From a virus, in the IMG/VR virus record IMGVR_UViG_3300027969_000384, positions 1-26,188 of that record: 26,188 nucleotides of DNA. One strand, written 5' to 3'. This document shows positions 235 to 20,272 of this stretch, piece after piece. The notes beneath the pieces were generated by a model. That model had not been told where the DNA came from. It did no database searches and saw only the letters and a program-made list of their open reading frames with translations. Within the stretch, counting starts at the first letter, position 1; each line of letters starts with the position of its first letter. The translations under genes were made by a program, and so were the position numbers.

Positions 235-651
235 CTAATCTGGCTCGCCTTGGCCCACAGTGTTACCATCTTCGTCGGACAACTCCAACGGGCCTAGCAG
301 GATGTAGTCGGTATCATCACAGGACCAACCCAACTGTTCCATGCCATCGAAGTAGTCTTCTTCCCAAGCGGCCATGATCTCGCTCTGTTGTTCTTCAGTC
401 ATGTCAGCAGGCCAGTCCCATTCGGCCCAGCAACCGTCATCCATGTTATCCAGTTCCCAATCATAATCGCTTTCGCTGAGATTGTATTCGTCTGGATTTG
501 CTAGGTCAATCTCGGGTTGTTCATCGCTTTCGCAATAGAATGTGCCCCAACGATAGCCTTCTGTGCGGACGATAGTTTCGCCATCTTTACGCCAGAATTG
601 TTTTTCCACAGCATTCTTTTTGTGCTGTGTTTTCAGTGTCCACATTGCCAT
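235..651 (-). CDS. Highly acidic Trp-rich phage protein, possible DNA mimic
   Basis: 138 aa from the ATG at 651, 2 nt after the preceding stop, with GGAG upstream; the open frame extends further but overlaps that gene. The first 40 residues are basic (KKN, EKQFWRK). From about residue 41 to the end (98 residues) there is not one Lys or Arg, while I count 34 Asp/Glu and several Trp. Such composition is known from DNA-mimic proteins that block restriction or other DNA-binding proteins (Ocr is the classic example), but no homology to those is claimed. It looks like a family of short proteins found in T4-like phages of aquatic bacteria. It is the last gene before the left promoter. Function unknown; the mimic idea is inference. 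Confidence 0.8.
   Translation of the reverse strand: MAMWTLKTQHKKNAVEKQFWRKDGETIVRTEGYRWGTFYCESDEQPEIDLANPDEYNLSESDYDWELDNMDDGCWAEWDWPADMTEEQQSEIMAAWEEDYFDGMEQLGWSCDDTDYILLGPLELSDEDGNTVGQGEPD
481..509 (-). promoter_or_regulatory. Candidate intragenic sigma70-like promoter
   Basis: TTGACC (509-504), a 17-nt spacer and TACAAT (486-481) occur on the minus strand inside the acidic 138-aa gene. The hexamers and spacing match the promoter at 5672-5700. Being within a coding sequence, the match may be imposed by codons (Ile-Asp-Leu ... Tyr-Asn-Leu), so it is only a candidate. It would serve the left-edge gene together with the stronger promoter at 204-232. Confidence 0.3.
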
Positions 652-653
652 GA

Positions 654-851
654 TTAGTTCTCCGGTAAATCGCCGCCTGTGCAACTGCCATCCTCAAACC
701 ATTGAGCCATGGCCTGCTTGCGATATTGTGCCAAGTCTATCTGCCGGCGGCGTTCCAGCATCTCAGCATATTGCTCTTCCGAGAGTGCGTGGCTGGCATC
801 ACACCGGCCTTCAGGATTCAATGTCCTGCCGCAGTCGCACATCACTTGCAT
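654..851 (-). CDS. Small Cys-containing phage protein
   Basis: 65 aa. The ATG at 851 overlaps the upstream stop as TAATG, implying translational coupling; a second ATG three codons in is an alternative. The N-terminus has C5-x-C7 and C17 (CDCGRTL...GRCD), with another Cys near residue 57, suggesting a small metal-binding knuckle, followed by a charged helical stretch (EEQYAEMLERRRQ). No family recognised. It is part of a chain of short overlapping early-type genes. Confidence 0.7.
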   Translation of the reverse strand: MQVMCDCGRTLNPEGRCDASHALSEEQYAEMLERRRQIDLAQYRKQAMAQWFEDGSCTGGDLPEN

Positions 852-1066
852 TATGAATCACGATCCATTTCGCATGCTTCGCGCACAAGGCTCAGGACCT
901 CATCCACATTGATGCACAGGATCTTGGCCTGCACATAGTCGCCTTTTTTGTTGCGACCACCGGCTTCTACCATGAAGCCATTGTCATACATGTGGATTGA
1001 GAAGTTGTCATTTACTTTGACCAACTTGTCTCCAAGTTTATTCACTGTCTTTGCTGTTGCCATCAT
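851..1066 (-). CDS. Small conserved-type phage protein
   Basis: 71 aa, beginning with two consecutive ATGs at 1066 and 1063. AAGGAG lies only 3-4 nt before the first, so the second may be the true start. A basic N-terminus (TVNKLGDKLVKV) is followed by an alternating hydrophobic, probably beta-rich middle and an acidic end. No recognised domain. Its stop overlaps the next ATG. Confidence 0.75.
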   Translation of the reverse strand: MMATAKTVNKLGDKLVKVNDNFSIHMYDNGFMVEAGGRNKKGDYVQAKILCINVDEVLSLVREACEMDRDS

Positions 1067-1073
1067 TTTCTCC

Positions 1074-1283
1074 TTAAAAAGTTCTTTCTGGGGGTTTATT
1101 CATTTCCAACGCTGTGAGGATCTTGTTCTTGACCAAGGTGGATCCCACACATACACCTCGACCACCACATTGGTCGATACAGAAAGCAGCAGCGATGCGA
1201 ACCAGCCGTTCCACTGCTTCTGTTTGCTCGGGTGAGTATTTGAGTCCGGCTTCACTGGCCATGCGTTCGATCAATGAGTTCAT
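1074..1283 (-). CDS. Small helical phage protein
   Basis: 69 aa from the ATG at 1283, which overlaps the previous stop as ATGA. A TTG at 1298 and an ATG at 1292 in the same frame lie inside the upstream gene, so 1283 is preferred. The middle has two closely spaced Cys (FCIDQCGGRGVCVG) with a third six residues on, reminiscent of a small metal site, between two amphipathic helices. Function unknown. Confidence 0.65.
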   Translation of the reverse strand: MNSLIERMASEAGLKYSPEQTEAVERLVRIAAAFCIDQCGGRGVCVGSTLVKNKILTALEMNKPPERTF

Positions 1284-1558
1284 TGATAACATTTCCAAGT
1301 GGCCAGATCATAATCCCAATGCCGTGTGTCGTAGAAGGCTAGTTCCACTTCGTATCCAAACACACCCAACATGATTCTAGCACCTGCGTGGTCACCTTGT
1401 AGTGTCCATTCAAACTGTAGATTGATGATACGGCCCGTGCGGTATCCATTGAACTCCCAGGCCTTGTTCTGGGTGATCAATCTTGATTTGCTCCACAGGA
1501 TATCCCAAACCTTATCGGTTCGCCATGGATTGGCAATGCTGAAGTCGAGATTGATCAT
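1280..1558 (-). CDS. Hypothetical phage protein, 92 aa
   Basis: 92 aa. The ATG at 1558 overlaps the SGNH gene's stop as ATGA. Rich in Trp and aromatic residues (NPWRTDKVWDILWSK, RHWDYDLATWK) with alternating beta-like segments; likely a small beta sandwich. No signal peptide, membrane segment or known motif. Tight coupling on both sides argues that it is genuinely translated. Confidence 0.7.
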   Translation of the reverse strand: MINLDFSIANPWRTDKVWDILWSKSRLITQNKAWEFNGYRTGRIINLQFEWTLQGDHAGARIMLGVFGYEVELAFYDTRHWDYDLATWKCYQ

Positions 1559-1950
1559 TGTGTCTGTTCCGCTAGTTTCTTATAGCCAGCCCAACTGGGA
1601 TGTATTTTGTCAGCCTGAAGATTCAAGATTGGTAATACCGTGTCTCCGTGGTCTTTTGCTACTATCCGAACCATCTCTTGTACATCGGGTTTGATTGCTG
1701 GCAATATCCAAAACACTCGGTCAGCATCAACTCTGCCCCTGAGTTGTTGTAGTTCCCATAGTGTGCGAACACCTGCATGATCATTGGAACCTAGACTGAT
1801 AATCACAGTTTTTGCATTGAGATTTTTATTTGAATTCTGTTTGTTCCATTGCCAACTGTTGATCCCACCCTTGGCATAGGCCACGCATTCGGGTCTATAC
1901 TGATGTGTGCCAACTGCGATACTATCGCCAACAATCAAACAATCAATCAT
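1555..1950 (-). CDS. Minimal SGNH/GDSL-type hydrolase
   Basis: 131 aa, starting at the ATG at 1950 that overlaps the preceding stop as ATGA. The SGNH blocks are visible: GDS with the nucleophile Ser at residue 10, Gly near 28-29 (YAKGG), GSND with Asn at 56, and DKIHP with Asp114 and His117. The family hydrolyses ester or acyl groups on lipids, sugars or cell-wall polymers. No signal peptide, so it acts in the cytoplasm or is released at lysis. At about 130 aa it is shorter than typical bacterial members (around 200 aa) but keeps all catalytic positions. Substrate unknown. Confidence 0.75.
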   Translation of the reverse strand: MIDCLIVGDSIAVGTHQYRPECVAYAKGGINSWQWNKQNSNKNLNAKTVIISLGSNDHAGVRTLWELQQLRGRVDADRVFWILPAIKPDVQEMVRIVAKDHGDTVLPILNLQADKIHPSWAGYKKLAEQTQ

Positions 1951-2171
1951 TGTGCTTTCCAAGTCTTCCAATGGCCACAATCTCTACAATGTGTTCCAGT
2001 CACGCTATCAGTTCCATTCATGGCCACCCATGTGATTGGTTTGGTATATCTGTGATTGCCAGTTGAACAGATTTCTTTACGGCGGTCTCGTGCGGTCATG
2101 TGATCGCCAAACACCAACCAGCCCCATCCTGCCAGGGCTGTGATGAACAACGCAGCACTGAAGTAGATCAT
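1947..2171 (-). CDS. Small membrane-anchored, possible zinc-ribbon protein
   Basis: 74 aa; ATG at 2171 overlaps the upstream stop as ATGA. Residues 3-21 form one hydrophobic segment (FSAALFITALAGWGWLVF), followed by a basic stretch (ARDRRK) that would sit in the cytoplasm. The rest has C35, H40 and a C62-x2-C65-x-H67 cluster, a plausible single metal site. No named family. Confidence 0.7.
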   Translation of the reverse strand: MIYFSAALFITALAGWGWLVFGDHMTARDRRKEICSTGNHRYTKPITWVAMNGTDSVTGTHCRDCGHWKTWKAQ

Positions 2172-2407
2172 ACAATCTTGCCCAACACGCCGTAGATCAA
2201 TCGGTCCAGTTCTTGCTGGTAGTCCGGGTTGCCCAGTCGACGCTTGTGCCAGATTGACTCCAGCAACAGTCGCATCTCATCAGCATCCACACCCTTGGTG
2301 TTATAGCCTACGCCACGATTCTCCAACTCTTCGATCAGGTCGTCGGTTTCGAACTCCGACATGTCAACATCAACTTCGACTTCTGTATAAATGGTTTTGT
2401 ATGTCAC
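2168..2407 (-). CDS. Small acidic conserved-type phage protein (GTG start)
   Basis: 79 aa from a GTG at 2407 with AGGAAA about 9 nt upstream. The N-terminal half is acidic (VEVDVDMSEFETDDLIEELE). The second half has Arg and Tyr (WHKRRLGNPDYQQELDRLIYGVLGK) and reads as two amphipathic helices. It resembles short conserved proteins of T4-like aquatic phages. Function unknown. The stop overlaps the next gene's ATG. Confidence 0.75.
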   Translation of the reverse strand: MTYKTIYTEVEVDVDMSEFETDDLIEELENRGVGYNTKGVDADEMRLLLESIWHKRRLGNPDYQQELDRLIYGVLGKIV

Positions 2408-2430
2408 GGTTTTTTTCCTGCTTAAAAATT

Positions 2431-2661
2431 CTAGCCACCAAAGTGTTTGATCACAGCATCCAGGTGGTGAATCATGATTTCGTTTCCGCTCACATCTTCA
2501 GGATGCAACCAGTATCCGTCAGGATTGGCGTCAGTCCGGGGATTTTTCTTCCACTCCGAGAGTTCTTTCTTGAGATAGTTTCTCTGCTCTTTAAGAGACA
2601 GCACAGTGATCCGATCGGCTGCTTCACCGTCTAGTGTGATGGGACCAATTCTTTTGCTCAT
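2431..2661 (-). CDS. Hypothetical phage protein, 76 aa
   Basis: 76 aa; ATG at 2661 overlaps the ligase stop as ATGA and is preceded by AGGAG. A short strand region is followed by a charged helix (LKEQRNYLKKELSEWKK) and a second helix near the end (IMIHHLDAVIKHF). No known motif. It is probably co-translated with the DNA ligase; whether it is a partner of that enzyme is unknown. Confidence 0.75.
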   Translation of the reverse strand: MSKRIGPITLDGEAADRITVLSLKEQRNYLKKELSEWKKNPRTDANPDGYWLHPEDVSGNEIMIHHLDAVIKHFGG

Positions 2662-4040
2662 AGTTTATCTCCTGCTTCAAATCCACGGAATCTCACAAAT
2701 CTTGGGAACCTCAAACTGTAGGTTCCGTCTTGGTTTTGGGTGACTGCGTCAGCTTCGACTTCAACCACATGATCAAGCAATGTATCGCGTGAATTCCAAT
2801 ACCGCTGGCGATCATCGTCGCTAAAACCGCTACCAACATTGACTCTGATGTTTCGTTCATTGTCTACTCCTTCACAGATTATAGCACCCAAGCGGTCCGC
2901 ATTGCGACCAGTTCCTTGTTCAAACCCCACAATATTGAGATCAACTGTTATGGTGGGCTTCCATTTCATCCAAAAGTCTGACCGCTTGCACTCGTAAGGG
3001 GCATCCAGATTCTTGATCATGATGCCTTCGAATCCGTTCTTCACAGCGTCTTGGGCATAACGATTCATCTGATCATGCCCTTCGGCTGTGTCCAGATCCA
3101 CTTCATGCCCTGACATCACACGCAAACAATCAGTCTTGTCAAATCTGTTTCGTAGATTCTCCACCCACTTCAAGCGGAGGTGTTGGCGGGTATTACAATG
3201 CCCTTCTTTGAACTCATTCAACGGAATCAGATCAAACACATGATATACCATGCCTTCGGTTTGGGCATCGTTTTTGCGGTGTGCTTGACGCATGAGTTTC
3301 TGGAAACTCTCTCCCACGATCTCACCATCCAAGACCACACCACCCGGTCCCATGCCGCCCTTGACCGTGCCGTTGGCCACATTCATTAAAGCATCTGCGA
3401 TCTGTGGAAAGTTAGCAAACTCTTTGCCATTGCGGCTATACAAGGTCACGCTGATAGGAGTGACCACTGCCAACACACGCACGCCATCCAGTTTGACTTC
3501 CAGGCGTTTGATGCCTTTCATCTTGGCCGGACGATCTGTTGAGTCCTGTGCCAACTGGCATGAGAACACTGGAATGCGATATTGTGTTCGGCCCAACACC
3601 TTGTTCAGGGTCTTGTCTGTTATGCCACAGCGGAGGTCTTTGCGGATCACTGGCACACATACCAAGTTCCACTCATCGCTGTCGAACTCTTCGCTGATGC
3701 TCTTTATGAGATCTCTGGCTGCATGGCCACTAGTGCTGCGAGTGCGTAGTGCTTCCAACAGACCCCAGAATCGTGGCCACGGATTGGCACGACCTGTGAG
3801 TCCAGCGGTCTCAGGCAGTTGCTTCACATGGAAGGTATGGAAGGGATTGTAGGCTTGGTAGCAGTTGAACAAAAAAGCCTGTGCATCGGCACTGCCAAGT
3901 TTCGCAGCCATCAAGGCTTTTTCAATAACCTTTTCCTTGTGGAGGCGGCTGTCGGACTCGGCCAGTTCCGTTATCCAGCCAGACGACATGGTGCCCTCAT
4001 AGCGTGGATCATCAATGTCGTATGTGAATTCATTTGTCAT
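2658..4040 (-). CDS. ATP-dependent DNA ligase
   Basis: 460 aa, close to T4 gp30 (487 aa). It seals nicks in duplex DNA during replication and repair through a lysyl-AMP intermediate. Nucleotidyltransferase motifs run in order: motif I KLDGVR with the adenylated Lys at 183, YSRNGKEF at 202-209, LDGEIV near 237-242, motif IV EGIMIK at 338-343, and motif V around WMKWKP at 357-362, followed by an OB-fold-like C-terminus. The N-terminal 170 residues form the helical DNA-binding domain of phage and LigB-type ligases (CVPVIRKDLRCGI). A GGAAG site precedes the start. The small gene after it overlaps by ATGA. Confidence 0.95.
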   Translation of the reverse strand: MTNEFTYDIDDPRYEGTMSSGWITELAESDSRLHKEKVIEKALMAAKLGSADAQAFLFNCYQAYNPFHTFHVKQLPETAGLTGRANPWPRFWGLLEALRTRSTSGHAARDLIKSISEEFDSDEWNLVCVPVIRKDLRCGITDKTLNKVLGRTQYRIPVFSCQLAQDSTDRPAKMKGIKRLEVKLDGVRVLAVVTPISVTLYSRNGKEFANFPQIADALMNVANGTVKGGMGPGGVVLDGEIVGESFQKLMRQAHRKNDAQTEGMVYHVFDLIPLNEFKEGHCNTRQHLRLKWVENLRNRFDKTDCLRVMSGHEVDLDTAEGHDQMNRYAQDAVKNGFEGIMIKNLDAPYECKRSDFWMKWKPTITVDLNIVGFEQGTGRNADRLGAIICEGVDNERNIRVNVGSGFSDDDRQRYWNSRDTLLDHVVEVEADAVTQNQDGTYSLRFPRFVRFRGFEAGDKL

Positions 4041-4043
4041 TAT

Positions 4044-4505
4044 TTACTTCCGTTGTTGCTTGGTCAATGCACACACAAATAAGAACTGGTCGTATGCTGC
4101 TTTCACTGCCTCATTGGTCAATAGGTTGGCGGCTTCTTGTTCCAATGCCTTCAAGCCTGCCTGAGCAATATCCCAAGAACTGGCTCCATTCAATGTGCAT
4201 AGTTCATCACCAAACTCTTTGGCCAACTTCTTCCATGCTCGTTGTTGGCCCAGTGTGATAGGAGTTTGCTTGGGTTTCATTTCACTGGCCTTTTGCATGG
4301 CTTGAATCATGGCGTCTTCGGCCACCCGAGCAGCCGCAATCAAGGCAGCATAATCAGGATCGATGTTGTATCTGCGACTCTGCCCACCTGGATAGCATAT
4401 CACAAGATGGCTGCCTTTGCCGAAACTATCTGTCAAGTCGCTATCGTATTCGGCCACAGGAACATATTTCCTGCCCACCTTTTCGTAATAGATTTTTTTT
4501 ACCAT
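4044..4505 (-). CDS. Conserved-type phage protein (KKIYYEKVGRKYVPV family)
   Basis: 153 aa. The N-terminus (KKIYYEKVGRKYVPVAEYD) and the YPGGQSRRYNIDPDYAALIAA segment match my recollection of a protein widespread in myoviruses but never assigned a function. The rest is mainly helical with an Ala/Glu-rich middle. It overlaps the preceding gene by 7 nt and ends 3 nt before the ligase ATG, so it is in the same transcription unit. No catalytic motif visible. Confidence 0.8.
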   Translation of the reverse strand: MVKKIYYEKVGRKYVPVAEYDSDLTDSFGKGSHLVICYPGGQSRRYNIDPDYAALIAAARVAEDAMIQAMQKASEMKPKQTPITLGQQRAWKKLAKEFGDELCTLNGASSWDIAQAGLKALEQEAANLLTNEAVKAAYDQFLFVCALTKQQRK

Positions 4506-4909
4506 GAACTGTTGTAGAAAACTTTAAGTCCCAAAAACGCTTCGGCCTTGGCTTCACGCACGAATTTCAAATCGTGTTCGCGATAATGATCGTCAGCATC
4601 GTTGCCGAAAAAGAATCCCGAGGTGCCAGGCAGGTTTTTGTCGCGGATATCCTGTTCCAACTGTTCAAGGTCGTTCCAGGTGAGTTCCAGTTCGTCGCCG
4701 TTGAATTCACCATTGTTGCCTCGAGATGTCCACAAGCGATGCATCCAGCCATGCAGGTTAGGATGCTTACGCCAATAAGCGATCTCGCGTGGTTCGGTTA
4801 CACTGGGATTTACCATTGCACCTTTTTCTTTGTCCCACGCCTTTCCTTCGTCGTAGTCTGCCAGGGCACCAGCCTTGGCAGCCACATACGCATACATGTC
4901 CAATCCCAT
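4499..4909 (-). CDS. MGLDMYAY-type conserved phage protein
   Basis: 136 aa. The start MGLDMYAY, the WRKHPNLHGWMHRLW segment and the GFFFGNDADDHY segment are typical of a small family common in phages and prophages, sometimes carried in databases under unrelated enzyme names. No biochemical function is established to my knowledge. The conserved His, Trp, Asn and Asp residues suggest a binding site. The ATG overlaps the previous stop as TAATG. Confidence 0.8.
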   Translation of the reverse strand: MGLDMYAYVAAKAGALADYDEGKAWDKEKGAMVNPSVTEPREIAYWRKHPNLHGWMHRLWTSRGNNGEFNGDELELTWNDLEQLEQDIRDKNLPGTSGFFFGNDADDHYREHDLKFVREAKAEAFLGLKVFYNSSW

Positions 4910-5262
4910 TATTCATCATCCTTGTTTGTCACTACGCCATCTTTCAATGTTTTCAATAACTGACGATTACGCTCATCTTGTTCTTTGCGGCCTCGCTTGG
5001 TGTCAATGTTTCGATCAACAACCATGCGATCGTAATGTCTTGCCCACACGATACCTTGCATGAACTGATCAGCACCCTCTAATGAGCCGGCAAACAAAAT
5101 AGCATCACGAGTGTAGATGGGCAATGAGTCTTGTCCCCACGGCACCAATGCCACATTGTCTGCATCATAGTCATCGTGCCTGTAAGGGGCAAACTTCATG
5201 CCCAGTATGAGTGCTCGGTCCTCGAGCTCTCGGATCTTTTTGATTGTGCTCCAGCCTGCCAT
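4909..5262 (-). CDS. Hypothetical phage protein, 117 aa
   Basis: 117 aa, with a weak ribosome binding site 5 nt after the preceding stop, suggesting coupling. An N-terminal helix (IKKIRELEDRALILG), a central mixed region (DNVALVPWGQDSLPIYTRDAILFAG) and a basic C-terminal helix (DTKRGRKEQDERNRQLLKTLKDG) are visible. No known domain. Confidence 0.75.
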   Translation of the reverse strand: MAGWSTIKKIRELEDRALILGMKFAPYRHDDYDADNVALVPWGQDSLPIYTRDAILFAGSLEGADQFMQGIVWARHYDRMVVDRNIDTKRGRKEQDERNRQLLKTLKDGVVTNKDDE

Positions 5263-6533: not shown

Positions 6534-6574
6534 GTATGTCCATATTATAGCAGTTCGAGCAATACCGGTCAACC
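6534..6574 (-). repeat. Dispersed promoter repeat, copy 2
   Basis: Partner of the repeat at 6218-6258 (34 of 41 identical, same orientation). This copy lies directly after the strong terminator that ends the porin unit, forming a terminator-promoter cassette. Confidence 0.75.
6544..6572 (-). promoter_or_regulatory. Sigma70-like early promoter after terminator
   Basis: TTGACC (6572-6567), 17-nt spacer, TATAAT (6549-6544), with a TGC extended -10. It starts 3 nt beyond the terminator's U-tract and so restarts transcription for the early region below the porin. The predicted start near 6537 leaves about 20 nt of leader before the 28-aa ORF. Confidence 0.88.
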
Positions 6575-6575: not shown

Positions 6576-6607
6576 CACAAAAAAACCCTGCTCTGGGCAG
6601 GGTTTTT
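6576..6607 (-). terminator. Strong rho-independent terminator after the porin
   Basis: A perfect 11-bp inverted repeat (6581-6591 with 6597-6607; GC core CCCTGC/GCAGGG, 5-nt loop) is followed on the minus strand by a run of Ts. The symmetric A/T arms make it potentially bidirectional. It lies about 40 nt after the porin stop. Confidence 0.9.
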
Positions 6608-6650: not shown

Positions 6651-7550
6651 TTAGAAGTTGTATTCTACGCCCGCACCGTATTGTGTGACATCTGTGGTTG
6701 TGTCGATGAAACTCCAACGAGCATTGAAAGTCAATGCCTTGTTCATTGCATAAGCAACACCTACACCGCGCCCGGTTTTGCCAGTGTCGGTTTCACCGTA
6801 ATTGGCCAGCACACTCAATTGGCTGGTGATTGCTTGGCTTACACCAATGCTCTTACCAGTTGTGCTTACATTAGATGCCACGTCGCTGCTGTACAGACCA
6901 AACACTGTGGTACCAGTACTGGCCAGGTTGTATTTCACACCAATGATATTGCTGGAACTAGAGATGCCATCGTCGTAACGAGCAAAGGTGGCACTGATTG
7001 GTCCTTGTGTATAGTCGATGCTGCCCGATGTGGTATTGGCGGTACCAGCGACTTCGCTGTTGGCCAATTGATAGTTAGCAGTGAATCCAGCGATAGGTGC
7101 GCTGCTCACAAACAATGCGTTCTGAACACGTGACCCTTGTGCATTATGCACAGTGCCCACGATAGTACCATAAGCATTACCAAACGAATCAAAGTTATCT
7201 AATGCACGAACTGCTGAGTGTTTATCACGGCCCATGCCCAAAGAACCCAGATTGTTGCTGAGATCAAATCGAGCAGTGCGGTCGCCTAGTGTAGTAGCAC
7301 TTGGCGCATCTACAGCAACACCAGTTTCGAGAATGGCAGTAGCAGTGATACCACTACCAACATCACCGGTGGCTTTGAATCCCAAGCGAGTGGAATCATT
7401 GGTCAAGCGAGTAAGAGGGCTAGCGGTACCCAGGGTGTATGATTCTTCGTACACACGAACTTTGCCGTAGACGCTGACTTGAGGAGCGGTTTGTGCTGAA
7501 GCAGCACTTGCGGCCAATGCCAGGGCCAAGAGTAAAGCATATTTCTTCAT
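6651..7550 (-). CDS. Outer-membrane porin (Gram-negative general porin type)
   Basis: 299 aa from the ATG at 7550 with AAAGGAAAA upstream. Residues 1-19 are a signal peptide (MKK, a Leu/Ala core, ASA before the cleavage site at Gln20). The mature 280 residues show alternating beta strands, the porin signatures TRLGFKATGDVGSGITATAILE and LGMGRDKH...FDSFGN (constriction-loop region), and a C-terminal Phe after YNF, the outer-membrane insertion signal. This matches general diffusion porins of Burkholderiales-like bacteria, but is shorter than their usual 330-370 aa, consistent with trimmed loops. It follows a virion gene and ends in a strong terminator. No clear promoter is visible upstream. A host porin gene captured by a phage could alter the phage receptor or permeability; that role is inference. 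Codon use looks like its neighbours. Confidence 0.9.
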   Translation of the reverse strand: MKKYALLLALALAASAASAQTAPQVSVYGKVRVYEESYTLGTASPLTRLTNDSTRLGFKATGDVGSGITATAILETGVAVDAPSATTLGDRTARFDLSNNLGSLGMGRDKHSAVRALDNFDSFGNAYGTIVGTVHNAQGSRVQNALFVSSAPIAGFTANYQLANSEVAGTANTTSGSIDYTQGPISATFARYDDGISSSSNIIGVKYNLASTGTTVFGLYSSDVASNVSTTGKSIGVSQAITSQLSVLANYGETDTGKTGRGVGVAYAMNKALTFNARWSFIDTTTDVTQYGAGVEYNF

Positions 7551-7624
7551 GAAGTTTTCCTTTTTAAAAATTGTTAGGTGTGCTTGTGGCACAACATTAC
7601 TTAGTAATAATACTGATATCCTTG

Positions 7625-9562
7625 CTATTTTACGACCAAATTGGCTGCTTCTGCCTCTGAATAGGTACTAGGAATCAGATTTGCCTGTGGCGGAACTGTA
7701 TCTGGTGTACTAGGAATAGTAGTGTCAAATCCTATATTCACCGAACTAAGGAATGCCTCATTACGGCCTTGTCTCAAACAAGCCACTATGGCCTGCCCCC
7801 CTTGTGTGTTGAGATCAGCCACAGTCTCAAGGAATTGACTAGGCCCATTCTCTTCGGTGTCGAGTCCGTAATTAGGTAAGTTTTGTACAAACCCCATAAT
7901 AGGTCCACGACCTGTGGACGGTAATGCACCGATATCGATAGTAGCCAATGATAGATTGGTTCTTTGCCGACTTAGACTCGCAGCCATGTCTGTGAAATTG
8001 GTATTGAGATTGCCACTCTGTGCAGGATAAGAACTTTGGATTCCAGATACTTCAGATGCTGCATTACTGATCAATGCATTCAATGCTGCATCCACATTGC
8101 CATAATTTCCTTCTCCTGGACCAGGAGGGATGACCACATTACCAAGATTACCCACATTATAGTCGCCATTCACCGTGGCTGTCATCCTGTTGTACGTCAC
8201 AATCAATGTGCCAAATATGCCTGCTGTATTCATAGAGTTGATCGTAGTGGTTACATTGGTTAGATCACTGGTAAAAGGTATCCCCACTGCTGCTCCTAAT
8301 AGATCAGTCAATACCAAGGTGCCATTGGGCCCAGAGCCAGTGGCATAATCCGCAGCATAAAATGCTGCCACCGATGCAGGCACGGCTTGTTGCAATGCAG
8401 ATATAGCAGGAAGATCTCTAGTGGTCTCCATGTTACTGAAAGCTGCTGCTAATTGAGGTAAGGTAAGACCACTGACATTTTTAATCTGCTGTAAACTGAC
8501 TTGGATGGCTTTGCTAGCCAAGGCCTGATCTGGTGGCACGATTCTACTCAGGCGTTGATAAGGTATAACAGTGAGACTACCTTGTACCAAAATAAACTGC
8601 GGTAGATAAAATAACAGTTTAGAATTTACCGTTGCTTGATTATTATCGTAAATGGCTCTCAACACCGATGTAGTATCTTGATTATAAACCCGTACTGTGA
8701 GGCTGGGATAACTGTTGGGAAATATCTTCACAGGGTTCAACAAATCCGCCATGGTTTTAATGTATGGTGTGGTCACCCTGAATATAGCCAACACTTGTTC
8801 CAAGTCTGTGCCAGTAATAGTGGTCATAGCCAAGTAGGCTCGTCGTTGTACTGAATCATCTACTTCGGCATCTGGATTGGTCAGTTGATCAATACCACTA
8901 TCGGTGAGTCCTACCTGTGTTAATGCTGTGCTGATGCTGGGAGGTATATTGGTCACTGTGCTTAGTTGACGTAACAATGCTGCCGGAGAGCCAAAATTAC
9001 CTAAATTATTGAGATCAATAAGATTGCCTAATGCAGTGAGATCTGCACCGAATGTTTCCATAGCCAAAGTCACATCAGTTAGACTACCGGTGATCAAACT
9101 ATTCATAGTAGTAAATGTTGATCCTAGGTAAGTCTGGCTGTTGATGCTGCTATTGATATAATCATTGGTGGCGACCACATATCCCTGTGCAGCAGGGAAC
9201 ACCTGAGCAAAAACTGTGGTGCTACCATTACCAAGGTCTTGGGTTGCTTGTGAGTTGATTATACCTGTGAATCCCGACAAGGCGTTGGTACCTAAACTAG
9301 AATAGGCTGCGGGAGTATTGTCGGCCAACGCAGGCACAGTTCCTGTGCAAAATGTGACCATGTAACTTAATGTATTACCGCTAATGTTAGCAGCGGTATT
9401 AGAATAAGCAGCATTGACCGCGGTAAAATATGTCGAAATCAACGAAGTGCTATAGTATGCACTATCTGCCGCTGTCCATGTGTTGGCCACACTCACTCCA
9501 TTATTATTGCTCAGTGTAGCACCGGCAATCATCTGTAACGGGGTTAATACACCAGTGACCAT
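7625..9562 (-). CDS. Large predicted virion (baseplate/tail) structural protein
   Basis: 645 aa starting 2 nt after the PAAR stop, so probably translated with it. Rich in Thr, Ser, Asn, Ala and Leu, with many short hydrophobic repeats, no signal peptide, no membrane segment and few charges, as in phage structural proteins. The N-terminus (VTGVLTPLQMIAGATLSNN) resembles that of large proteins next to PAAR genes in T4-like aquatic phages, as I recall. Its place directly after the spike tip suggests a tail or baseplate component. No catalytic motif recognised; exact role unknown. Confidence 0.65.
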   Translation of the reverse strand: MVTGVLTPLQMIAGATLSNNNGVSVANTWTAADSAYYSTSLISTYFTAVNAAYSNTAANISGNTLSYMVTFCTGTVPALADNTPAAYSSLGTNALSGFTGIINSQATQDLGNGSTTVFAQVFPAAQGYVVATNDYINSSINSQTYLGSTFTTMNSLITGSLTDVTLAMETFGADLTALGNLIDLNNLGNFGSPAALLRQLSTVTNIPPSISTALTQVGLTDSGIDQLTNPDAEVDDSVQRRAYLAMTTITGTDLEQVLAIFRVTTPYIKTMADLLNPVKIFPNSYPSLTVRVYNQDTTSVLRAIYDNNQATVNSKLLFYLPQFILVQGSLTVIPYQRLSRIVPPDQALASKAIQVSLQQIKNVSGLTLPQLAAAFSNMETTRDLPAISALQQAVPASVAAFYAADYATGSGPNGTLVLTDLLGAAVGIPFTSDLTNVTTTINSMNTAGIFGTLIVTYNRMTATVNGDYNVGNLGNVVIPPGPGEGNYGNVDAALNALISNAASEVSGIQSSYPAQSGNLNTNFTDMAASLSRQRTNLSLATIDIGALPSTGRGPIMGFVQNLPNYGLDTEENGPSQFLETVADLNTQGGQAIVACLRQGRNEAFLSSVNIGFDTTIPSTPDTVPPQANLIPSTYSEAEAANLVVK

Positions 9563-9564: not shown

Positions 9565-9858
9565 TTATGCGGCGAACACATCAAAGCTGCCAGTGGCTAT
9601 GCGAGTGCATGCAAGTAATGGATCACCTATACGTGCTACAGGACGTCCGTTTACAAAAACTGAACGACTGCCCATAATAATTGGTGCCACATGTGGCGGG
9701 CATACCATTGGAGCCGGTAGCAAATGAGGACTACTGATATCTCCTAGGGCAGCCAAAGGTAACCCATTGACAAATACGTTAGGACTACCTGTGGCAATCA
9801 CATAAGGACTGCAATGTGGTATTCCTATATCACCCAATCTCGCTACTGGTCTTCCCAT
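9565..9858 (-). CDS. PAAR-domain tail spike tip protein
   Basis: 97 aa from the ATG at 9858 (GGAGA 8 nt upstream). PAAR proteins form the sharp metal-containing cone on the VgrG/gp5-type membrane-piercing spike of contractile tails. Seen here: repeated GRPVARLGD / NGRPVARIGD turns, SPNVFVNGLPLA and SRSVFVNG hairpins, and candidate metal ligands His15, Cys16, His45, His56 and Cys83. Length is normal for the family (about 95 aa). It overlaps the previous gene by 29 nt and precedes the large structural gene. Confidence 0.9.
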   Translation of the reverse strand: MGRPVARLGDIGIPHCSPYVIATGSPNVFVNGLPLAALGDISSPHLLPAPMVCPPHVAPIIMGSRSVFVNGRPVARIGDPLLACTRIATGSFDVFAA

Positions 9859-10048
9859 ACGCTTTCTCCATAAGTTGCATAAGACGATCTGGCCAGGCAT
9901 CTATCTCTTCGTGCTGCTGGTGGGTATGCGGCCCTGGAGGAATTTCTGGAATGAATTCTAACACATGGTCTAGATCATCGGGTATGGATTCGTATTGATC
10001 ATACACTTCAATAACATCATGCCGCATGATCACGAACCTATGTCCCAT
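9830..10048 (-). CDS. Small conserved-type phage protein before PAAR
   Basis: 72 aa from the ATG at 10048, or 65 aa from the ATG at 10027. The first ATG lies only 4 nt after a perfect TATAAATA late promoter, so an mRNA from it would be leaderless or start inside the codon; the second ATG has AGG about 10 nt upstream. The sequence (DVIEVYDQYESIPDDLDHVLEFIPEIPPGPHT..QHEEI) is acidic with a Pro-rich middle and a C-terminal helix. It resembles short proteins of T4-like marine phages. Function unknown. Confidence 0.7.
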   Translation of the reverse strand: MGHRFVIMRHDVIEVYDQYESIPDDLDHVLEFIPEIPPGPHTHQQHEEIDAWPDRLMQLMEKAYGKTSSEIG

Positions 10049-10360: not shown

Positions 10361-10606
10361 TTAATCTCCGTATCCGCCGGCGGTTTCTTCAATGTATTTT
10401 CTCAGTTCTGTGAATCCGCCAACGTGATTGTTGTTCACAAAAATCTGTGGTACTGCTCTTGCTGTGGGCACTGCTGCCAACAGGTCTTCTCGGGTGTATC
10501 CATGCCCGATTTTCTTTTCTTCGTATGCGATGTTGCGTTGCTCTAATAGAGCTTTGGCTTGGTCGCAGAAGGTACAGTTGTCTTTGCTCCAGACTATGGC
10601 TTTCAT
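10361..10606 (-). CDS. nrdC: Glutaredoxin (NrdC-like)
   Basis: 81 aa thiol-disulfide oxidoreductase that would re-reduce the phage ribonucleotide reductase. Active-site C11-T-F-C14, the cis-Pro motif VPQIF near 52-56 and a GG-F-EL glutathione-site motif (GGFTELRKYI) are all present, so it is a dithiol glutaredoxin and not a CGFS Fe-S type. Length is typical of T4 NrdC-like proteins. The gene follows nrdB by 11 nt with AAGGA upstream, in line with co-expression. Confidence 0.92.
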   Translation of the reverse strand: MKAIVWSKDNCTFCDQAKALLEQRNIAYEEKKIGHGYTREDLLAAVPTARAVPQIFVNNNHVGGFTELRKYIEETAGGYGD

Positions 10607-10617: not shown

Positions 10618-11721
10618 TTATAGATTGGGTAGTTGGTCGTAATCGAGACTTTCGCTCATCACGCCAATAACATAGTTAGTTGATTCGTTCTCTTGCAGTG
10701 CAGTTTGTTTCTTCGAAGTATCTGAATGCTTGTTGAACCATGGAATGGGTGTGTTTCTGGGTGCAGGAGATTGATACTTGATACCGATATCTTTAAGTGC
10801 TCCTACTGCTGTGTAATCCACAAAGTCTTTGAGAATATTGGCATTGAGACCAATCACCGGTCCTCGGTTAAACAAATAGTCCGCCCAGTCTTTTTCTTCT
10901 CGTATCACATCCATGTATAACTCGTATACCTCGGCTTCACATTCTGCTTTGGCTTCTGCGAAGCGCGGATCTTCTTTGATCACTTGGTTGATCATAAACG
11001 CTGTCCATTCTTTGTGCAACAGTTCATCCTGCAGGATCAAACTGATGATGTTACCATTACCGATGAAGATTTTGTTCTCCACCATGGCCAGGCTTGTGGC
11101 AAACGATACCATAAAACGGAATGCCTCTAGTGCGTAACTTGCGTGTAGTGCCATCCAAATTGCCCGGATGTGACTTTTTTCATTTACTGTTTTAGGATTG
11201 ATCTCTTTGAAGCAATTGAGTTCGTGCAGTTTATCATAGTAGTTGCCCACCGAACTTGCCATGTCAACGATCTCTTGTGTGTCGTGAATGGTGTTGAACA
11301 CTTCTTTGGGCACATTGTAAATATTGCGGATGATATGACTGTAACTGCGGCTATGGATGTTGGTCTCAAAGAAACTCCAGTTATACATCAAGGCTTCCAG
11401 TTCAGGCAGGCTCACACAGGGTGTGAATACCTGTGCTGGACCACGACCTTGTAAACTATCCAAGGCTGTTTGCCGCAATAGGTTTGAGGTGAAGATATGC
11501 TTCACAGCATCACTTGCATCTTTGAAGTCGTTGGCATCTTTGCTGAGACTAATCTCTTCAGGTACCCAAAAGAACCCACGAGCGGTCTGTTCGATCTTTT
11601 GTATCTTGTTGTATTTGACTTCTTCGAATCGTTGGATGGTAACTGGGCCCTCGGGGTCCAAGAACATCTTGCGATTGAGATAGTCTGTTTTTGTTGTTAG
11701 GTTGTATTGTGCTTTTGACAT
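10618..11721 (-). CDS. nrdB: Ribonucleotide reductase small subunit (class Ia, NrdB)
   Basis: 367 aa, as E. coli and T4 NrdB (about 375-390). It carries the diiron-tyrosyl radical that drives dNTP synthesis with NrdA. Visible ligands and radical Tyr: Asp88 (TALDSLQGR), Glu119 and His123 (ETNIHSRSY), Tyr127, Glu199 (LEAFRFMV), Glu233 and His236 (QDELLHKEW). Other spacings equal E. coli NrdB, but Glu119-His123 has one residue more than the E-x-x-H of E. coli and T4. The C-terminus (SLDYDQLPNL) is the usual NrdA-binding tail. The ribosome binding site is weak; translation probably follows from the small gene 1 nt upstream. Confidence 0.95.
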   Translation of the reverse strand: MSKAQYNLTTKTDYLNRKMFLDPEGPVTIQRFEEVKYNKIQKIEQTARGFFWVPEEISLSKDANDFKDASDAVKHIFTSNLLRQTALDSLQGRGPAQVFTPCVSLPELEALMYNWSFFETNIHSRSYSHIIRNIYNVPKEVFNTIHDTQEIVDMASSVGNYYDKLHELNCFKEINPKTVNEKSHIRAIWMALHASYALEAFRFMVSFATSLAMVENKIFIGNGNIISLILQDELLHKEWTAFMINQVIKEDPRFAEAKAECEAEVYELYMDVIREEKDWADYLFNRGPVIGLNANILKDFVDYTAVGALKDIGIKYQSPAPRNTPIPWFNKHSDTSKKQTALQENESTNYVIGVMSESLDYDQLPNL

Positions 11722-12043: not shown

Positions 12044-14359
12044 CTAAAGTTTGCATGCTTCGCAGTCTTCTGCATCATCAAAATCAATGGGCATGAGTGG
12101 TGCATCTTCTGCCACCTCTTTGCTACCTTGCTTGTTGATCAGGCTATAGTAAAAAGTTTTCAATCCCCACACATGCGATTGCATGAGGTTCTTGGCTATC
12201 AGTGTGGTAGGTACTTTGCGATCTGCAAAGTGTGCAGGGTTGTAGAATGTGTTGGTTGAAATACTTTGATCCACATATGCTGCGATCACTGCTGCGGTTT
12301 TGAGATAGCCTTCACAGTCCTTTTGTTCCCACATCATCTGATACTTGTTTTTCAATTTGTGATATTCAGGAACCACTTGCACAAAACTTCCTGCTTTGCT
12401 TTCTTTCACACTGATCAGACTCATTGGCATTTCAATACCATTGGTTGAGTTGATCACCACTGAACTGGATTCCACCGGTGCTACTGCCATCTGTGTAGCA
12501 TTACGCACACCATGAGTTTTCATGTTGGTGCGTAGTGTTTCCCAATCCAGTTCGGGAGAAAAGTCAGTGAGTTCATTCACGCCCTTGGCTCGCAATTCCC
12601 AAGGAAATACTCCTTTGCCGTAGCGTGTGTGTTCGCTGCCTAAACATGCGCCGCGTTCTTGTGCCAATTCCACTGACGCTTCGGTGAGATAGAAAGCCAT
12701 GTGTTCCATCCAAGATTTGATCTCAGCTAGAGCATCCTTCTCCCCGTAACGCAGGCCTCTCTTGGCGTGCCAGTAGGCAAGGTTTGTGATGCCGATGCCG
12801 AGTGGTCGGATCTCGTCGTTGGACAGTTTTGATTGGATGGATAAGAAGTCTTGGTAATCAAGAATGTTATTGAGACTGCGGTGCAGAATGCGGGCAGCAC
12901 GGCGAATATCTTCTGGATTACGGAAGGCTCCCCAGTTGAGACTTCCCAATGTGCAAAGTGCGATGCGACCATCAGTATCATCCAGCCGCTTAAAGGAACG
13001 AGTAGGTAAAAGTATTTCACAGCAAAGGTTACTCTGGTAGATGGTGTGATATTCCGGATCAAACGGTCCTTGGTCCATCACATTGTCGATGAACACTAGA
13101 TATATACGTCCAGTGTCTGTTCGTTCTTTGAGAATACCACTCTTGAAAACTTCTTCCGCAGCCATCGTCTTCTTACGCAGGCCTTTCTGCTTTTCATATT
13201 TGCAGTAAAGTTCTTCAAACAGTGCAGTATTTTTATAAAATGCTTCATATAAGTCAGGAACCTCGTTAGGGTCAAAGAATGTTATGTTTTCTTTGTTCTT
13301 GAAACGCCGCCAGAAAAATGCGGATAGAACCACACCATAATCCATGTGTCGAACACGGGTTTCTTCTGTGCCTTGATTGTTCTTGAGAACAATAAGATCA
13401 TCAAACTGATGATGCCAAATAGGATAAAAAACAGTAGCACTTGCATTGCGGATACCTCCTTGTGAGCACGAGCGTAAGTCACCGAACCACTTCTTCAAAA
13501 AAGGTATCATGCCGGTATGCATGATTTCTCCACCACGGATAGGCGATCCTAATGGCCGCAACCTGCCAATCTCAAGACCAATGCCGGCACGCTTGCTGGC
13601 ATACTTGGCCATCATTTCTCCCGAGGCAAAAATGCTATCCAAGTCATCATCACTACGGATAAGAACGCAAGAACTGAATTGCTTGGTAGGTGTTCCCAAT
13701 CCAGCCAACACAGGGGTAGCGAGTGTAAACAGACCATCACTGGCTGCATTGTAGTATTCCTTGATATACCGCATCCTGGCTGTGTTGGGCTCTTCCTTAT
13801 GGAACACTGTGGCCGCTGCAACCATGTAACGAACTTGAGGTGTTTCATATGTTTCCTTAGTAGCACGATTTTTAACAAGATATTTTTCAATCAACTGCTC
13901 AATAGCAGCATAACTGAGATTTTCATCCTTGTCATGATCGATCATGTCCTGCATGCGATTCCAGTCGTCCTCGCTGTACCACTCTAACAGTTCAGGAGTA
14001 TAAAGACCCGTGGCCACATTCTTCTTAACTATATCATAAAGGTGAGGAGGATCGTAACTGCCATATACGTCTTTGCGTAGCATTGATAGGCGTTGTTTGC
14101 CGGCCACGTATTGGTAGTTGGTATGTCCTACATCAGGATTAGATTCTACATCAATGAGATCCACAATGGCTCTGAGTGTGATACCATCAATCTCCTTGGT
14201 TGTGATTCCATCGTAGAAATGCATCTGTGCTTTGATCTCTACCATGCTTTGACTTACGTCTGCTATACCTGAACATACCTTGGCAATCTGTGTCTGCCAT
14301 TTTTCCAATGCCAACGGTTCTTTCTGACCGTTTCTTTTGATAACTGTGATTTGTGTCAT
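12044..14359 (-). CDS. nrdA: Ribonucleotide reductase large subunit (class Ia, NrdA)
   Basis: 771 aa, typical for class Ia (E. coli 761). It reduces ribonucleoside diphosphates to deoxy forms. The N-terminal ATP-cone allosteric domain is present (VIKRNGQKEPLALEKW). Active-site residues: Cys231 (FSSCVLI), Asn444, Cys446 and Glu448 (NLCCEI), and Cys469 (ALCTLGSLNWG). The radical-transfer Tyr pair (TFYYS) and the redox-active C-terminal CEAC pair (Cys766, Cys769) are also visible. It forms an operon with the 103-aa gene, nrdB and glutaredoxin. The ribosome binding site is weak (GAGCAGAA), 6 nt after the upstream stop. All catalytic residues are intact. Confidence 0.97.
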   Translation of the reverse strand: MTQITVIKRNGQKEPLALEKWQTQIAKVCSGIADVSQSMVEIKAQMHFYDGITTKEIDGITLRAIVDLIDVESNPDVGHTNYQYVAGKQRLSMLRKDVYGSYDPPHLYDIVKKNVATGLYTPELLEWYSEDDWNRMQDMIDHDKDENLSYAAIEQLIEKYLVKNRATKETYETPQVRYMVAAATVFHKEEPNTARMRYIKEYYNAASDGLFTLATPVLAGLGTPTKQFSSCVLIRSDDDLDSIFASGEMMAKYASKRAGIGLEIGRLRPLGSPIRGGEIMHTGMIPFLKKWFGDLRSCSQGGIRNASATVFYPIWHHQFDDLIVLKNNQGTEETRVRHMDYGVVLSAFFWRRFKNKENITFFDPNEVPDLYEAFYKNTALFEELYCKYEKQKGLRKKTMAAEEVFKSGILKERTDTGRIYLVFIDNVMDQGPFDPEYHTIYQSNLCCEILLPTRSFKRLDDTDGRIALCTLGSLNWGAFRNPEDIRRAARILHRSLNNILDYQDFLSIQSKLSNDEIRPLGIGITNLAYWHAKRGLRYGEKDALAEIKSWMEHMAFYLTEASVELAQERGACLGSEHTRYGKGVFPWELRAKGVNELTDFSPELDWETLRTNMKTHGVRNATQMAVAPVESSSVVINSTNGIEMPMSLISVKESKAGSFVQVVPEYHKLKNKYQMMWEQKDCEGYLKTAAVIAAYVDQSISTNTFYNPAHFADRKVPTTLIAKNLMQSHVWGLKTFYYSLINKQGSKEVAEDAPLMPIDFDDAEDCEACKL

Positions 14360-14365: not shown

Positions 14366-14785
14366 TCAATATAGTTGTTGTTTTACTTCGCTTTGCGCGA
14401 TGTGATGTTTGCTTTGTTGGAGGTTGGTATTTAAGCCAAGGTCTCGCCCCCAATTCAATATATATTTTCCGCCTTGAACTTGGACTAAATTGCCCTGTTC
14501 GGTTTCCACTAGCACAGCATCTTGTATATCATCGCGATCCAGCACAGTGATAGTATACAGGATTCCTAGCCCGCGAGCAAGATCACAATAGATATTGTCG
14601 CTCAAAAGTTGCCAGGGATCAGGCCAATCTTGCCGATCGTCCCAGTGCAGATGATATGCACGCCACGGGGTTTGTTGCCACCAGGTATTGATTTCTGTCA
14701 AGGCATCGGGTGTAGGGAGATCTCGAACACGATCGCGCAATGCTGTCCACGCCGCTAGGCGTTGTTCAAAGGTTGAACACCACAT
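14366..14785 (-). CDS. Conserved-type phage protein, 139 aa
   Basis: 139 aa; the ATG at 14785 overlaps the tail-spike stop as ATGA, so the longer frame upstream is not used. Trp-rich (INTWWQQTPWRAYHLHWDDRQ), followed by DPWQLLSDNIYCDLARGLGILYTI and a beta-like C-terminal part. The WPDPWQLLSDNIYC..AR.LGILYT segment is like a conserved protein adjacent to structural genes in T4-like aquatic phages, as I recall. Function unknown; possibly a tail-assembly helper. Confidence 0.75.
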   Translation of the reverse strand: MWCSTFEQRLAAWTALRDRVRDLPTPDALTEINTWWQQTPWRAYHLHWDDRQDWPDPWQLLSDNIYCDLARGLGILYTITVLDRDDIQDAVLVETEQGNLVQVQGGKYILNWGRDLGLNTNLQQSKHHIAQSEVKQQLY

Positions 14786-16383
14786 CAAGCAAGTCTGGTT
14801 ACTGAATAATTTATAGTGGCACCGGATCCGGTACTGGTAGTTGTAGCCAACCAACTTACAATGCTGGCTGTTTCACTTACAGAGAAAGTCACGCCGGTCG
14901 ATGCATTTTGTACACCTGTGTCGGATCCTTGCAATCCAGTGCCTGACGCATCTGTGCCGGCTACAATAGTATACACACCAGTCCTGGTACTGGTATCTCT
15001 AACTATGGTGTAGTTGATCTGAATGGCACGAATCGCTGTGGCATCAAAGGTCAATATAGTTTGCGACGCAGTATTATCTAGCAATGTACCATGTACTCCG
15101 GTTTCACGAACATACACACCTTGTTGCGTTTGGCTGGCTCCTTCAAATGCTATGCTGACTCCGGAATTGATGTTGATACGAGGGTAGGTACCGGAATATG
15201 CAGTGGTACGTTGGAACATGTCACCAATGCTGACATTGTTCTGCCCTACGAAATCAATTACCGAGGCAGCGGGTGCTGTGGTTCCATTGAAGTGATTACC
15301 TACATCATAGAACACATTGTACCCACTGGCATTTAATCCAGTATTGGCTGCGATACTGATACCCTGCTCATAGATGTTATCAAAAACATTGCCCAAGATG
15401 CGGAATCCTGTAGGACCACCATTGACCGGGGTAGGATCACCCAACAAGATGCCTTGATACAAGGTATCAAATGTGCTTTCAGTGATCAACACACCGGCTA
15501 CTTGATTGGGAGTATTCACTCCCCAGGTTGTACCACTGAACAAGCATCTACGGAAAGTGATGCTACTACATACCAAACTTAAAGTGGATGCAAAGCGAAC
15601 TCCGGCTATGTTGTCAACAGTATCTACTAGATCAGTAGTGGTCAATGACCCTTGGAAACTCACATCTACAAAAGTACATTGTTCGGCATCTTCTACCAAG
15701 AACACATCCACCAGATCCAAACTCTTGAATCCCATGTTAGATATCGTTATATCTCGCGGCGGTGTGGCACCGTTGTTGCCGATGTTCACACCTGTTTGTT
15801 GAAGGCTATCTCCAAATCTTGCCACATACTCACTGAGAGCAGAAGTAGGGCTAGATATGTCCATCACGATTACGCTGGAATTGATGCCTTCGCCACACAA
15901 CATTGCATATGGGGGGATCACAATTGATTCATTAACTAGGTATTGACCGGCCGGGAAGAACAACGAACGACGTATTTGTGGATTTGATTCTCTACAATAC
16001 AGTTGATACAAAGCACGGTTGATAGCCTCTGTATCATCTGTAACGCCATCACCCACTGCACCAAAGTCTAGTACACTGGCATATTGATCCAGCCATTGCT
16101 GGAGATTTAAACTTACTGGGCTGCCCGATGTGGCACCAGTCTGCACAGTATACCCAGCAGCCTCGCCTTTGTAAGTGTATGCACCATTTACCAGTAAGAA
16201 ATCTGAGAATTCAGTGAGAACTTCAGTGTTACCAATTACTGGAGCGCCTTCTTGCAATGTGCCATTGCCGATGAACAATCGACGTTCATCAATAGCCCAG
16301 CCTAATTCTGCACCGGCCAATTGAGGCAGGTTTTCTGCTAGACCTTTGCGGTTTGTTATTCGTGATACTTGAACTATTGCCAT
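14785..16383 (-). CDS. Tail spike/fibre with pectate-lyase-like beta-helix
   Basis: 532 aa. Residues 1-60 (VQVSRITNRKGLAENLPQLAGAELGWAIDERRLFIGNG) match the conserved N-terminal virion-attachment segment seen in many phage fibre proteins. Residues 106-121 (DFGAVGDGVTDDTEAI) are the start signature of the pectate-lyase-3/glycosyl-hydrolase-28-like right-handed beta-helix, and residues to about 420 show the expected repeating turns (NVSI, VSFQGS, RILGNVF). The last 110 residues are Thr/Ser/Gly-rich, probably a receptor-binding tip. It would bind or cleave host surface polysaccharide. A catalytic pair cannot be assigned by eye. Confidence 0.85.
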   Translation of the reverse strand: MAIVQVSRITNRKGLAENLPQLAGAELGWAIDERRLFIGNGTLQEGAPVIGNTEVLTEFSDFLLVNGAYTYKGEAAGYTVQTGATSGSPVSLNLQQWLDQYASVLDFGAVGDGVTDDTEAINRALYQLYCRESNPQIRRSLFFPAGQYLVNESIVIPPYAMLCGEGINSSVIVMDISSPTSALSEYVARFGDSLQQTGVNIGNNGATPPRDITISNMGFKSLDLVDVFLVEDAEQCTFVDVSFQGSLTTTDLVDTVDNIAGVRFASTLSLVCSSITFRRCLFSGTTWGVNTPNQVAGVLITESTFDTLYQGILLGDPTPVNGGPTGFRILGNVFDNIYEQGISIAANTGLNASGYNVFYDVGNHFNGTTAPAASVIDFVGQNNVSIGDMFQRTTAYSGTYPRININSGVSIAFEGASQTQQGVYVRETGVHGTLLDNTASQTILTFDATAIRAIQINYTIVRDTSTRTGVYTIVAGTDASGTGLQGSDTGVQNASTGVTFSVSETASIVSWLATTTSTGSGATINYSVTRLA

Positions 16384-17148: not shown

Positions 17149-17472
17149 TTAAACTCTAAAACTTTCTCCACATCCGCAGCGATCGCGCTCGTTAGGATTA
17201 GAGAATTCGAATCCTTCGTTAAGCCCTTGGCGCACATAGTCCACGGTCATACCTGAAAGATATACTTCGTGTCGTTTGTCCACTATCACAGAGAAACCTG
17301 GTTGAGCATAGTTTATTGTGGTATCGTCGGTAGTGTGTTGATCAACGTATTCTAACACATAAGCCAGTCCAGAGCAACCTGTAGTTTTCACTGCCAGTCG
17401 AATACCCACGCCACCGCGTTTCTCTAGTAGTCGTTGGATTTTGATTCGAGCAGTGTCAGTTAACGAGATCAT
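17149..17472 (-). CDS. iscA: A-type Fe-S carrier (IscA/ErpA/HesB family)
   Basis: 107 aa, the family's standard length. A-type carriers hold and pass on Fe-S clusters from the IscU scaffold. The three ligand Cys are present: Cys33 (TGCSGLAY), Cys99 and Cys101 (RCGCGESF), with the FEFSNPN segment before them. IscA, ErpA and HesB cannot be told apart by eye, so the symbol is a family name. Its ATG lies 17 nt inside the end of iscU, a tight overlap implying coupled translation. Confidence 0.92.
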   Translation of the reverse strand: MISLTDTARIKIQRLLEKRGGVGIRLAVKTTGCSGLAYVLEYVDQHTTDDTTINYAQPGFSVIVDKRHEVYLSGMTVDYVRQGLNEGFEFSNPNERDRCGCGESFRV

Positions 17473-19596: not shown

Positions 19597-19853
19597 GCTA
19601 ATACGTAACGTGATACTAGCCACCCCACCGTGGCAATAAGAAATCCAATAACACCTATGCCCCAACCAATCAATTGATCATTGCGTTTGGCGGCCATTCC
19701 ATGAACCATCTCATGAACTTCTGTTATCATAGTTTTTAAACTACCGATACTGGTGTTAGCTGATGCCAATTGAAATTCAAGATTACGATAGCGCTCGGCA
19801 CACAGTTCAACGTGGGCTTCGAGGCTTTTCTTTTCAATATCTGTGGTGTCCAT
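19593..19853 (-). CDS. Coiled-coil protein with C-terminal membrane segment
   Basis: 86 aa from the ATG at 19853; a TTG at 19880 in the same frame lies inside the previous gene. Residues 1-50 are acidic and heptad-like (KSLEAHVELCAERYRNLEFQL...MITEVHEMVHGM). Residues 60-85 (LIGWGIGVIGFLIATVGWLVS) form one membrane segment near the C-terminus. This is the layout of XhlA-like phage membrane proteins linked to lysis, but the likeness is only in architecture. It could be part of a holin or spanin system or a virion accessory. Confidence 0.75.
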   Translation of the reverse strand: MDTTDIEKKSLEAHVELCAERYRNLEFQLASANTSIGSLKTMITEVHEMVHGMAAKRNDQLIGWGIGVIGFLIATVGWLVSRYVLA

Positions 19854-19857
19854 GAAG

Positions 19858-20268: not shown

Positions 20269-20272
20269 ACAG

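Follow-up and report, generated by a model that had tools for sequence, protein, structure and literature searches.

Porins carried by phages are not without precedent. The lc gene of the lambdoid phage PA-2 is a lysogenic conversion gene encoding a porin of the enteric OmpC group, for which an effect on the receptor has been reported. As for T4-like phages, the nutrient genes described so far act, to our knowledge, mainly in the periplasm or the cytoplasm, and we know of no porin encoded beside the pstS of cyanophages. This last gene, in T4-like cyanophages, is reported to use the phosphate-sensing mechanism of the host (Zeng and Chisholm 2012, cited in PMC3686209). A viral ompL located next to glnK-amtB has also been reported (PMC8115048, ISME J. 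2020), which offers a published parallel of a viral porin linked with nutrient uptake, in that case of ammonium. Finally, the T4-like genome of the Pelagibacter phage HTVC008M contains a gene of similar length to ours, annotated as "outer membrane porin," and 57 further marine loci are of the same kind.

Here, we have analyzed a stretch of 26,188 bases corresponding to one IMG/VR virus record (hereafter the window), in which a porin gene is encoded. The first-pass annotation of this DNA considered a porin unusual in a T4-like genome, which it is not, since HTVC008M belongs to a set of 58 marine porin loci and 36 loci of a freshwater type were found in addition. The porin in the window is phage-borne like lc, but its profile finds Omp32 and PorB rather than the OmpC group. 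It also differs from the HTVC008M porin, which can be aligned over only 26% of the query with 37.5% identity, falls into a separate, long-branched clade, and has neither pstS nor plcP annotated at a distance of up to 12 kb. The viral ompL trio is of Bacteroidetes type and is thought by its authors to have been acquired together from a host (PMC8115048), whereas adjacency of a porin and pstS is essentially absent in the bacteria that were sampled. As in cyanophages, the pstS genes described here are phage genes, with Pho boxes here too, but their PstS is of Burkholderiales type. As far as the open-licence literature goes, a phage-specific porin family spread across T4-like phages (on contigs of up to 303 kb, with Gp23) and its recurrent pairing with pstS/plcP are new; no report of lake phages that pair a porin with pstS was found in that literature, an absence that in itself carries little weight.

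Fold and loops of the phage porin

The porin ORF (Table 1) encodes a protein that starts with an N-terminal signal, MKKYALLLALALAASAASA followed by Q, and ends with GVEYNF, that is, both a signal peptide and a C-terminal Phe are present. These two features, together with the 16-stranded model and the Omp32 match described below, bear out the earlier view that the porin is complete, and the ORF reading agrees with the mature length of ~280 aa that had been proposed. The net charge of the mature protein is slightly acidic (18 K+R vs. 21 D+E).

Table 1. Coordinates of the porin gene, its neighbors and its regulatory sequences in the window
Feature	Position	Strand	Basis
Porin gene, 299 aa (signal peptide and ~280-aa mature, predicted 16-stranded barrel)	6651..7550	-	ORF, model, relatives
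Signal peptide MKKYALLLALALAASAASA, probable cleavage before Q20	7494..7550	-	N terminus conserved in alignment A2
Ribosome-binding site AAGGA, before the ATG start	7558..7562	-	Direct reading; kept in homologues
CTAAGTA element, clade-conserved, like T4-type late (N)TAAATA	7598..7604	-	Homologue comparison
Sigma-70-like promoter TCGTAA-N17-TATTAT, weak, at chance level	7607..7635	-	Motif reading
C1 protein, 645 aa	7625..9562	-	Immediately precedes the porin in the window and 30 relatives
PAAR spike-tip protein, conserved block	9565..9900	-	Profile matches, gene order
Glutaredoxin, conserved block	10361..10606	-	Profile, gene order
NrdB, conserved block	10618..11721	-	Profile, gene order
NrdA, conserved block	12044..14359	-	Profile, gene order
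Hairpin of 12 pairs resembling an intrinsic terminator, directly after the porin	6581..6607		Sequence
Early-type TTGACC-N17-TATAAT promoter belonging to the following transcription unit	6544..6572	-	Sequence

Structure prediction yields the β-barrel that the first-pass annotation led us to expect. An AlphaFold2 model based on 29 phage sequences (pLDDT of 76.6, pTM of 0.73) has exactly 16 strands, and the region corresponding to L3 (residues 110-142, i.e., 33 residues) lies between strands 5 and 6 and contains two short helices. By its match to Omp32, L3 is predicted to sit inside the pore as a constriction. The top structural match is indeed Omp32, the anion-selective porin of Comamonas (Delftia) acidovorans (PDB 1e54, 2fgq), with a Z score of 26.6 over 265 residues and 22% identity; PorB and BpsOmp38 are within 1 Z of it, and OmpC/OmpF only ~2 Z lower. 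In a profile search of the PDB, Omp32 again comes out best (E of 8.6e-9), followed by PorB (0.008), while OmpC is not matched. Omp32 thus has in common with the phage protein its 16-stranded fold, the best profile match and the conservation of its aligned arginines 38, 75 and 133, but the phage protein is ~50 residues shorter, has shorter extracellular loops and is carried by a phage. The Pfam family Porin_4 matches 18 of the 29 phage homologues (L007 with 79.6 bits for a cut-off of 27); hmmscan reports no Porin_4 match for the window protein itself. The best explanation for this protein is a general-diffusion porin that is specific to phages and belongs to the Burkholderiales/Omp32 type.

Three arginines, R55, R91 and R141, are invariant in the phage porins and align in the profile alignment with R38, R75 and R133 of Omp32, which we take to be constriction residues. 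On their own they are no proof of anion selectivity, since they are common in bacterial relatives too. More telling for a predicted anion preference are the basic residues conserved in the clade of the window (K30, R32, H111, R115, H135, K206 and R278), with D or N prevailing at the R32 position in relatives, and an L3 that is less acidic than in bacterial relatives (2.8 vs. 4.0 D/E, with similar K/R).

The loops on the outside are short, as had been guessed from length alone: the aligned L4-L8 regions are 12-18 residues long, compared with means of 20-27 for 41 Burkholderiales porins (311-447 aa). Among all regions, mean entropy is at its lowest in L1 and L2 (0.25 and 0.27). OprP is characterized by a pore-lining L5 with an arginine ladder (PMC3706956). 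In our model L5 has ~5 residues (DGISS) and no Arg, so that the ladder of the phosphate-specific OprP/OprO type is missing. A viral structure library contains phage proteins named OmpC and OprO/P.

Relatives, gene order and origin

A protein scan of IMG/VR returned 13 loci with 64-100% identity to the window porin, one of them identical to it, and a profile scan returned 36 loci with 59-83% identity to the L013 porin (L013 itself left aside). As far as each contig reaches, cluster analysis shows that the order nrdA, nrdB, glutaredoxin, C3, PAAR, C1, porin is common to the window and 30 loci (29 plus L001). The context differs in five loci, namely L009-L011 (which have the same sequence), L029 and L035, while the sequence upstream of the porin in L013 is too short to judge. 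Because the gene recurs in 36 loci, 30 of them in the same order and one with an identical porin, an assembly chimera, which had been raised as a possible objection, is excluded.

The T4-like character proposed earlier is backed by a gp41-type helicase and the Nrd proteins in the window and by Gp23, which is encoded on porin contigs of 303 and 231 kb (no Gp23 is found within the window itself). The porin also lies, as had been noted, among virion and early genes, with PAAR and the 645-aa C1 protein upstream and early-type promoters downstream. For C1, no relatives were found in isolate phages and no match in Pfam. No integrase is named among the window ORFs that were profiled, and scans of the window with Rfam and for tRNAs found nothing.

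Several other features were observed on these contigs. In the window, adjacent genes for IscU-like and IscA-like iron-sulphur assembly proteins (17149-17842, minus strand) are preceded by a promoter-like TTGACA-N17-TACAAT site, and a similar pair occurs in L130; a tail-spike-like protein encoded at 14785-16383 (minus strand) contains a domain of pectate-lyase type and weakly matches Mtd_N. Elsewhere, the porin copy L018:2856-3764 has an in-frame stop near its C terminus (pseudogene or sequencing error), a small cytochrome c gene (L029:9564-9872, Pfam Cytochrom_C) lies directly upstream of a porin, and members of a B12-binding radical SAM cluster are found near the porin in L009-L011 (6629-8836), L007 and L032-L034. 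On the porin-bearing contig L038, nrdA is split (554-4923) by inserted sequence that contains an intein-like segment as well as a 538-aa ORF (1488-3104), and genes that by eye are ClpX-like and Hsp20-like occupy 18338-20313.

The porin is under purifying selection, as shown by pairwise comparison of 14 clade members (median dN/dS 0.16, maximum 0.29). A maximum-likelihood tree unites all freshwater-type phage porins in a single clade (99/95) that is separate from the Burkholderiales porins sampled; nesting inside one host genus, the other outcome envisaged for such a tree, was thus not found with a bacterial sample restricted to Burkholderiales. The HTVC008M-type porins are placed next to this clade on a long branch, and their placement is unsure. 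Recent capture from a host was not seen, the best match to the porin profile in 399 Burkholderiales genomes scoring only 76 bits (E of 5e-21), and a pattern scan of genome contigs found no host source for the porin. As for the hosts, the best bacterial matches of the phage PstS (65-69%) are mostly in Comamonadaceae but also in other Burkholderiales, which together with the porin type points to freshwater Burkholderiales as probable hosts. The freshwater habitat is presumed from the sample numbers and from the host group.

Phosphate genes and regulatory sequences

The gene order in L009-L011 and L029 is porin, pstS, a gene for a PlcP-like calcineurin-type phosphoesterase and a glycosyltransferase gene; the L011 PstS exceeds the cut-off of the NCBIfam PstS model. 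L035 has porin-plcP-glycosyltransferase, and one or the other arrangement (porin-pstS-plcP-glycosyltransferase or porin-plcP) is found in L009-L011, L029, L035, L130, L140 and L206; plcP and the porin are also close together in L137 and L184. A scan with phage PstS gave 46 viral loci, 39 of which have at least 500 bases upstream of pstS. In 13 of these 39, a porin of the same family lies directly upstream on the same strand, at 83-113 bases, although the independent cases are fewer because some loci are near-copies. Among 67 bacterial pstS loci, a single one has any porin at a distance of up to 6 kb, which speaks against the pair being a captured host operon. Since the first-splitting branches of the freshwater porin clade all have a pstS/plcP context, this context may be old.

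In the window and most of its relatives, the porin adjoins nrd/PAAR genes with no phosphate gene adjacent, and the 6.65 kb downstream of the porin in the window hold no phosphate-uptake gene. Among window-type contigs that reach far enough, however, five of six carry pstS and/or plcP ~20 kb downstream: pstS at ~20-22 kb in L022, L023, L031 and L036, and plcP at 18-24 kb in L022, L024 and L031. The exception is L005, with neither gene in the 26 kb downstream of its porin. The phage from which the window derives may likewise carry pstS/plcP outside the window.

The PlcP assignment is putative and follows from family resemblance. Host PlcP homologues are 50-54% identical and were not seen beside a glycosyltransferase in the four loci examined. 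PlcP/LpxH-like phosphoesterases (L011:12086-12859; L107-L186) are very common in viral contigs (at least 600 stretches), in several loci followed by a glycosyltransferase, and match only five records of the isolate-phage collection, including the pelagiphage Mosig. The pstS genes at L011:11005-12000 and 45 further viral loci (L187-L232) are of Burkholderiales type, and host-type Pho boxes accompany many of them.

Pho boxes were sought with a matrix trained on 40 host pstS promoters, of which it recovers 37. By the same test, boxes are present in 33 of 54 phage pstS upstreams and 20 of 96 plcP upstreams, counts that are not independent because loci overlap. Phages other than cyanophages thus apparently use the phosphate-starvation switch of the host through the Pho boxes of pstS. 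Pho control of the porin was not found: none of 33 porin upstreams has a Pho box, and the upstream of the window porin is likewise at chance level. Where the porin and pstS adjoin, they are separated by hairpin-like sequence, and in L011 the Pho boxes (ATGTAATATTACTGTCAC...) lie between the two genes, past this sequence. Since the boxes sit after the hairpin-like sequence and none precedes the porin, the latter seems to be its own transcription unit.

The porin promoters vary by subclade, from TTGACA/TTGACT-N17-TATAAT in L005/L007 and TTGACA-N17-TATTAT in L011 to the weak TCGTAA-N17-TATTAT of the window type. The CTAARTA element upstream of the porin is conserved and resembles elements before virion genes; in the window, T4-type late (N)TAAATA elements precede those at 16411 and 19184. 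Downstream of the porin, three similar early-type promoters, TTGACC-N17-TATAAT or TACAAT, were observed on the minus strand (6572-6544, 6256-6228 and 5700-5672).

What the porin may do for the phage

The explanation that we favor, with a probability of roughly 0.55, is that the porin forms an outer-membrane channel raising the entry of phosphate or other small anions into the host. In other words, because the porin is kept under selection and often occurs in the same genome as phosphate-scavenging genes, the virus probably helps phosphate uptake by the host cell during its own multiplication. The porin would be expressed and exported during infection and inserted, presumably as a trimeric channel, in the host outer membrane, where it would let more small nutrients, most likely phosphate or other anions, pass into the periplasm. 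The PstS encoded by several related phages would then hand phosphate to the host Pst transporter, while the PlcP-like phosphoesterase and the glycosyltransferase may free phosphate from lipids. More tentatively, at somewhat less than even odds, these genes might form an envelope-wide phosphate set, comprising an outer-membrane porin, a Pho-controlled PstS, and a PlcP-like phosphoesterase and glycosyltransferase recycling lipid phosphate, that phages built up themselves instead of taking over an operon from a host. Several observations go against a role in phosphate uptake: with no Pho box in 33 porin upstreams, a response of the porin to starvation is a candidate only, most porins lie beside nrd/PAAR genes, L005 has neither pstS nor plcP in the 26 kb downstream, a hairpin-like sequence stands between the porin and pstS where the two adjoin, and the charge of the protein is slightly acidic.

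Some of these observations would suit a general channel for nutrients and metabolites, with no preference for phosphate, that sustains uptake after host gene shut-off. Such a channel is what the general-porin fold suggests, OmpF and PorB being equally close within ~2 Z, and neither the location of most copies away from phosphate genes nor the lack of Pho boxes would be surprising. We nevertheless consider it unlikely, though the first alternative to which we would turn, since adjacency to phosphate genes is recurrent in phages and nearly absent in bacteria, and the extra conserved basic residues lie in or near the aligned constriction region. That the phage porin replaces or dilutes host porins, leaving loop-binding phages unable to attach (receptor masking or superinfection exclusion), appears improbable. 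While L4-L8 near the minimum for a barrel would leave tail fibres and colicins little to bind, and the possible own promoter and terminator resemble those of a moron, L1 and L2 belong to the best-conserved parts of the protein instead of being diversified, no mechanism removing host porins was seen, and the benefit would be short-lived in a lytic T4-like phage. Moreover, the recurrent pstS/plcP association has no place in this account. Of the functions put forward in the first-pass annotation, uptake of nutrients through a different channel is thus the best supported, by this very association, while a receptor swap as in PA-2 finds no positive evidence.

A late envelope protein, expressed with virion genes and assisting lysis or altering the outer membrane, is very improbable. 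It would explain why the porin comes directly after the PAAR and C1 genes and has a CTAARTA/CTAAATA element resembling the ones that precede virion genes, but not the consensus-like TTGACA/TTGACT-N17-TATAAT promoters in L005/L007, nor why a full L3 and the constriction arginines are kept, as in a working channel.

If the porin indeed serves phosphate uptake, freshwater bacteria would have even their outermost permeability barrier reshaped by phages in order to gain phosphate. The porin offers a concrete test of whether the supply of phosphate limits phage production in lakes, and its pared-down barrel could help to identify the porin loops on which phage attachment depends.
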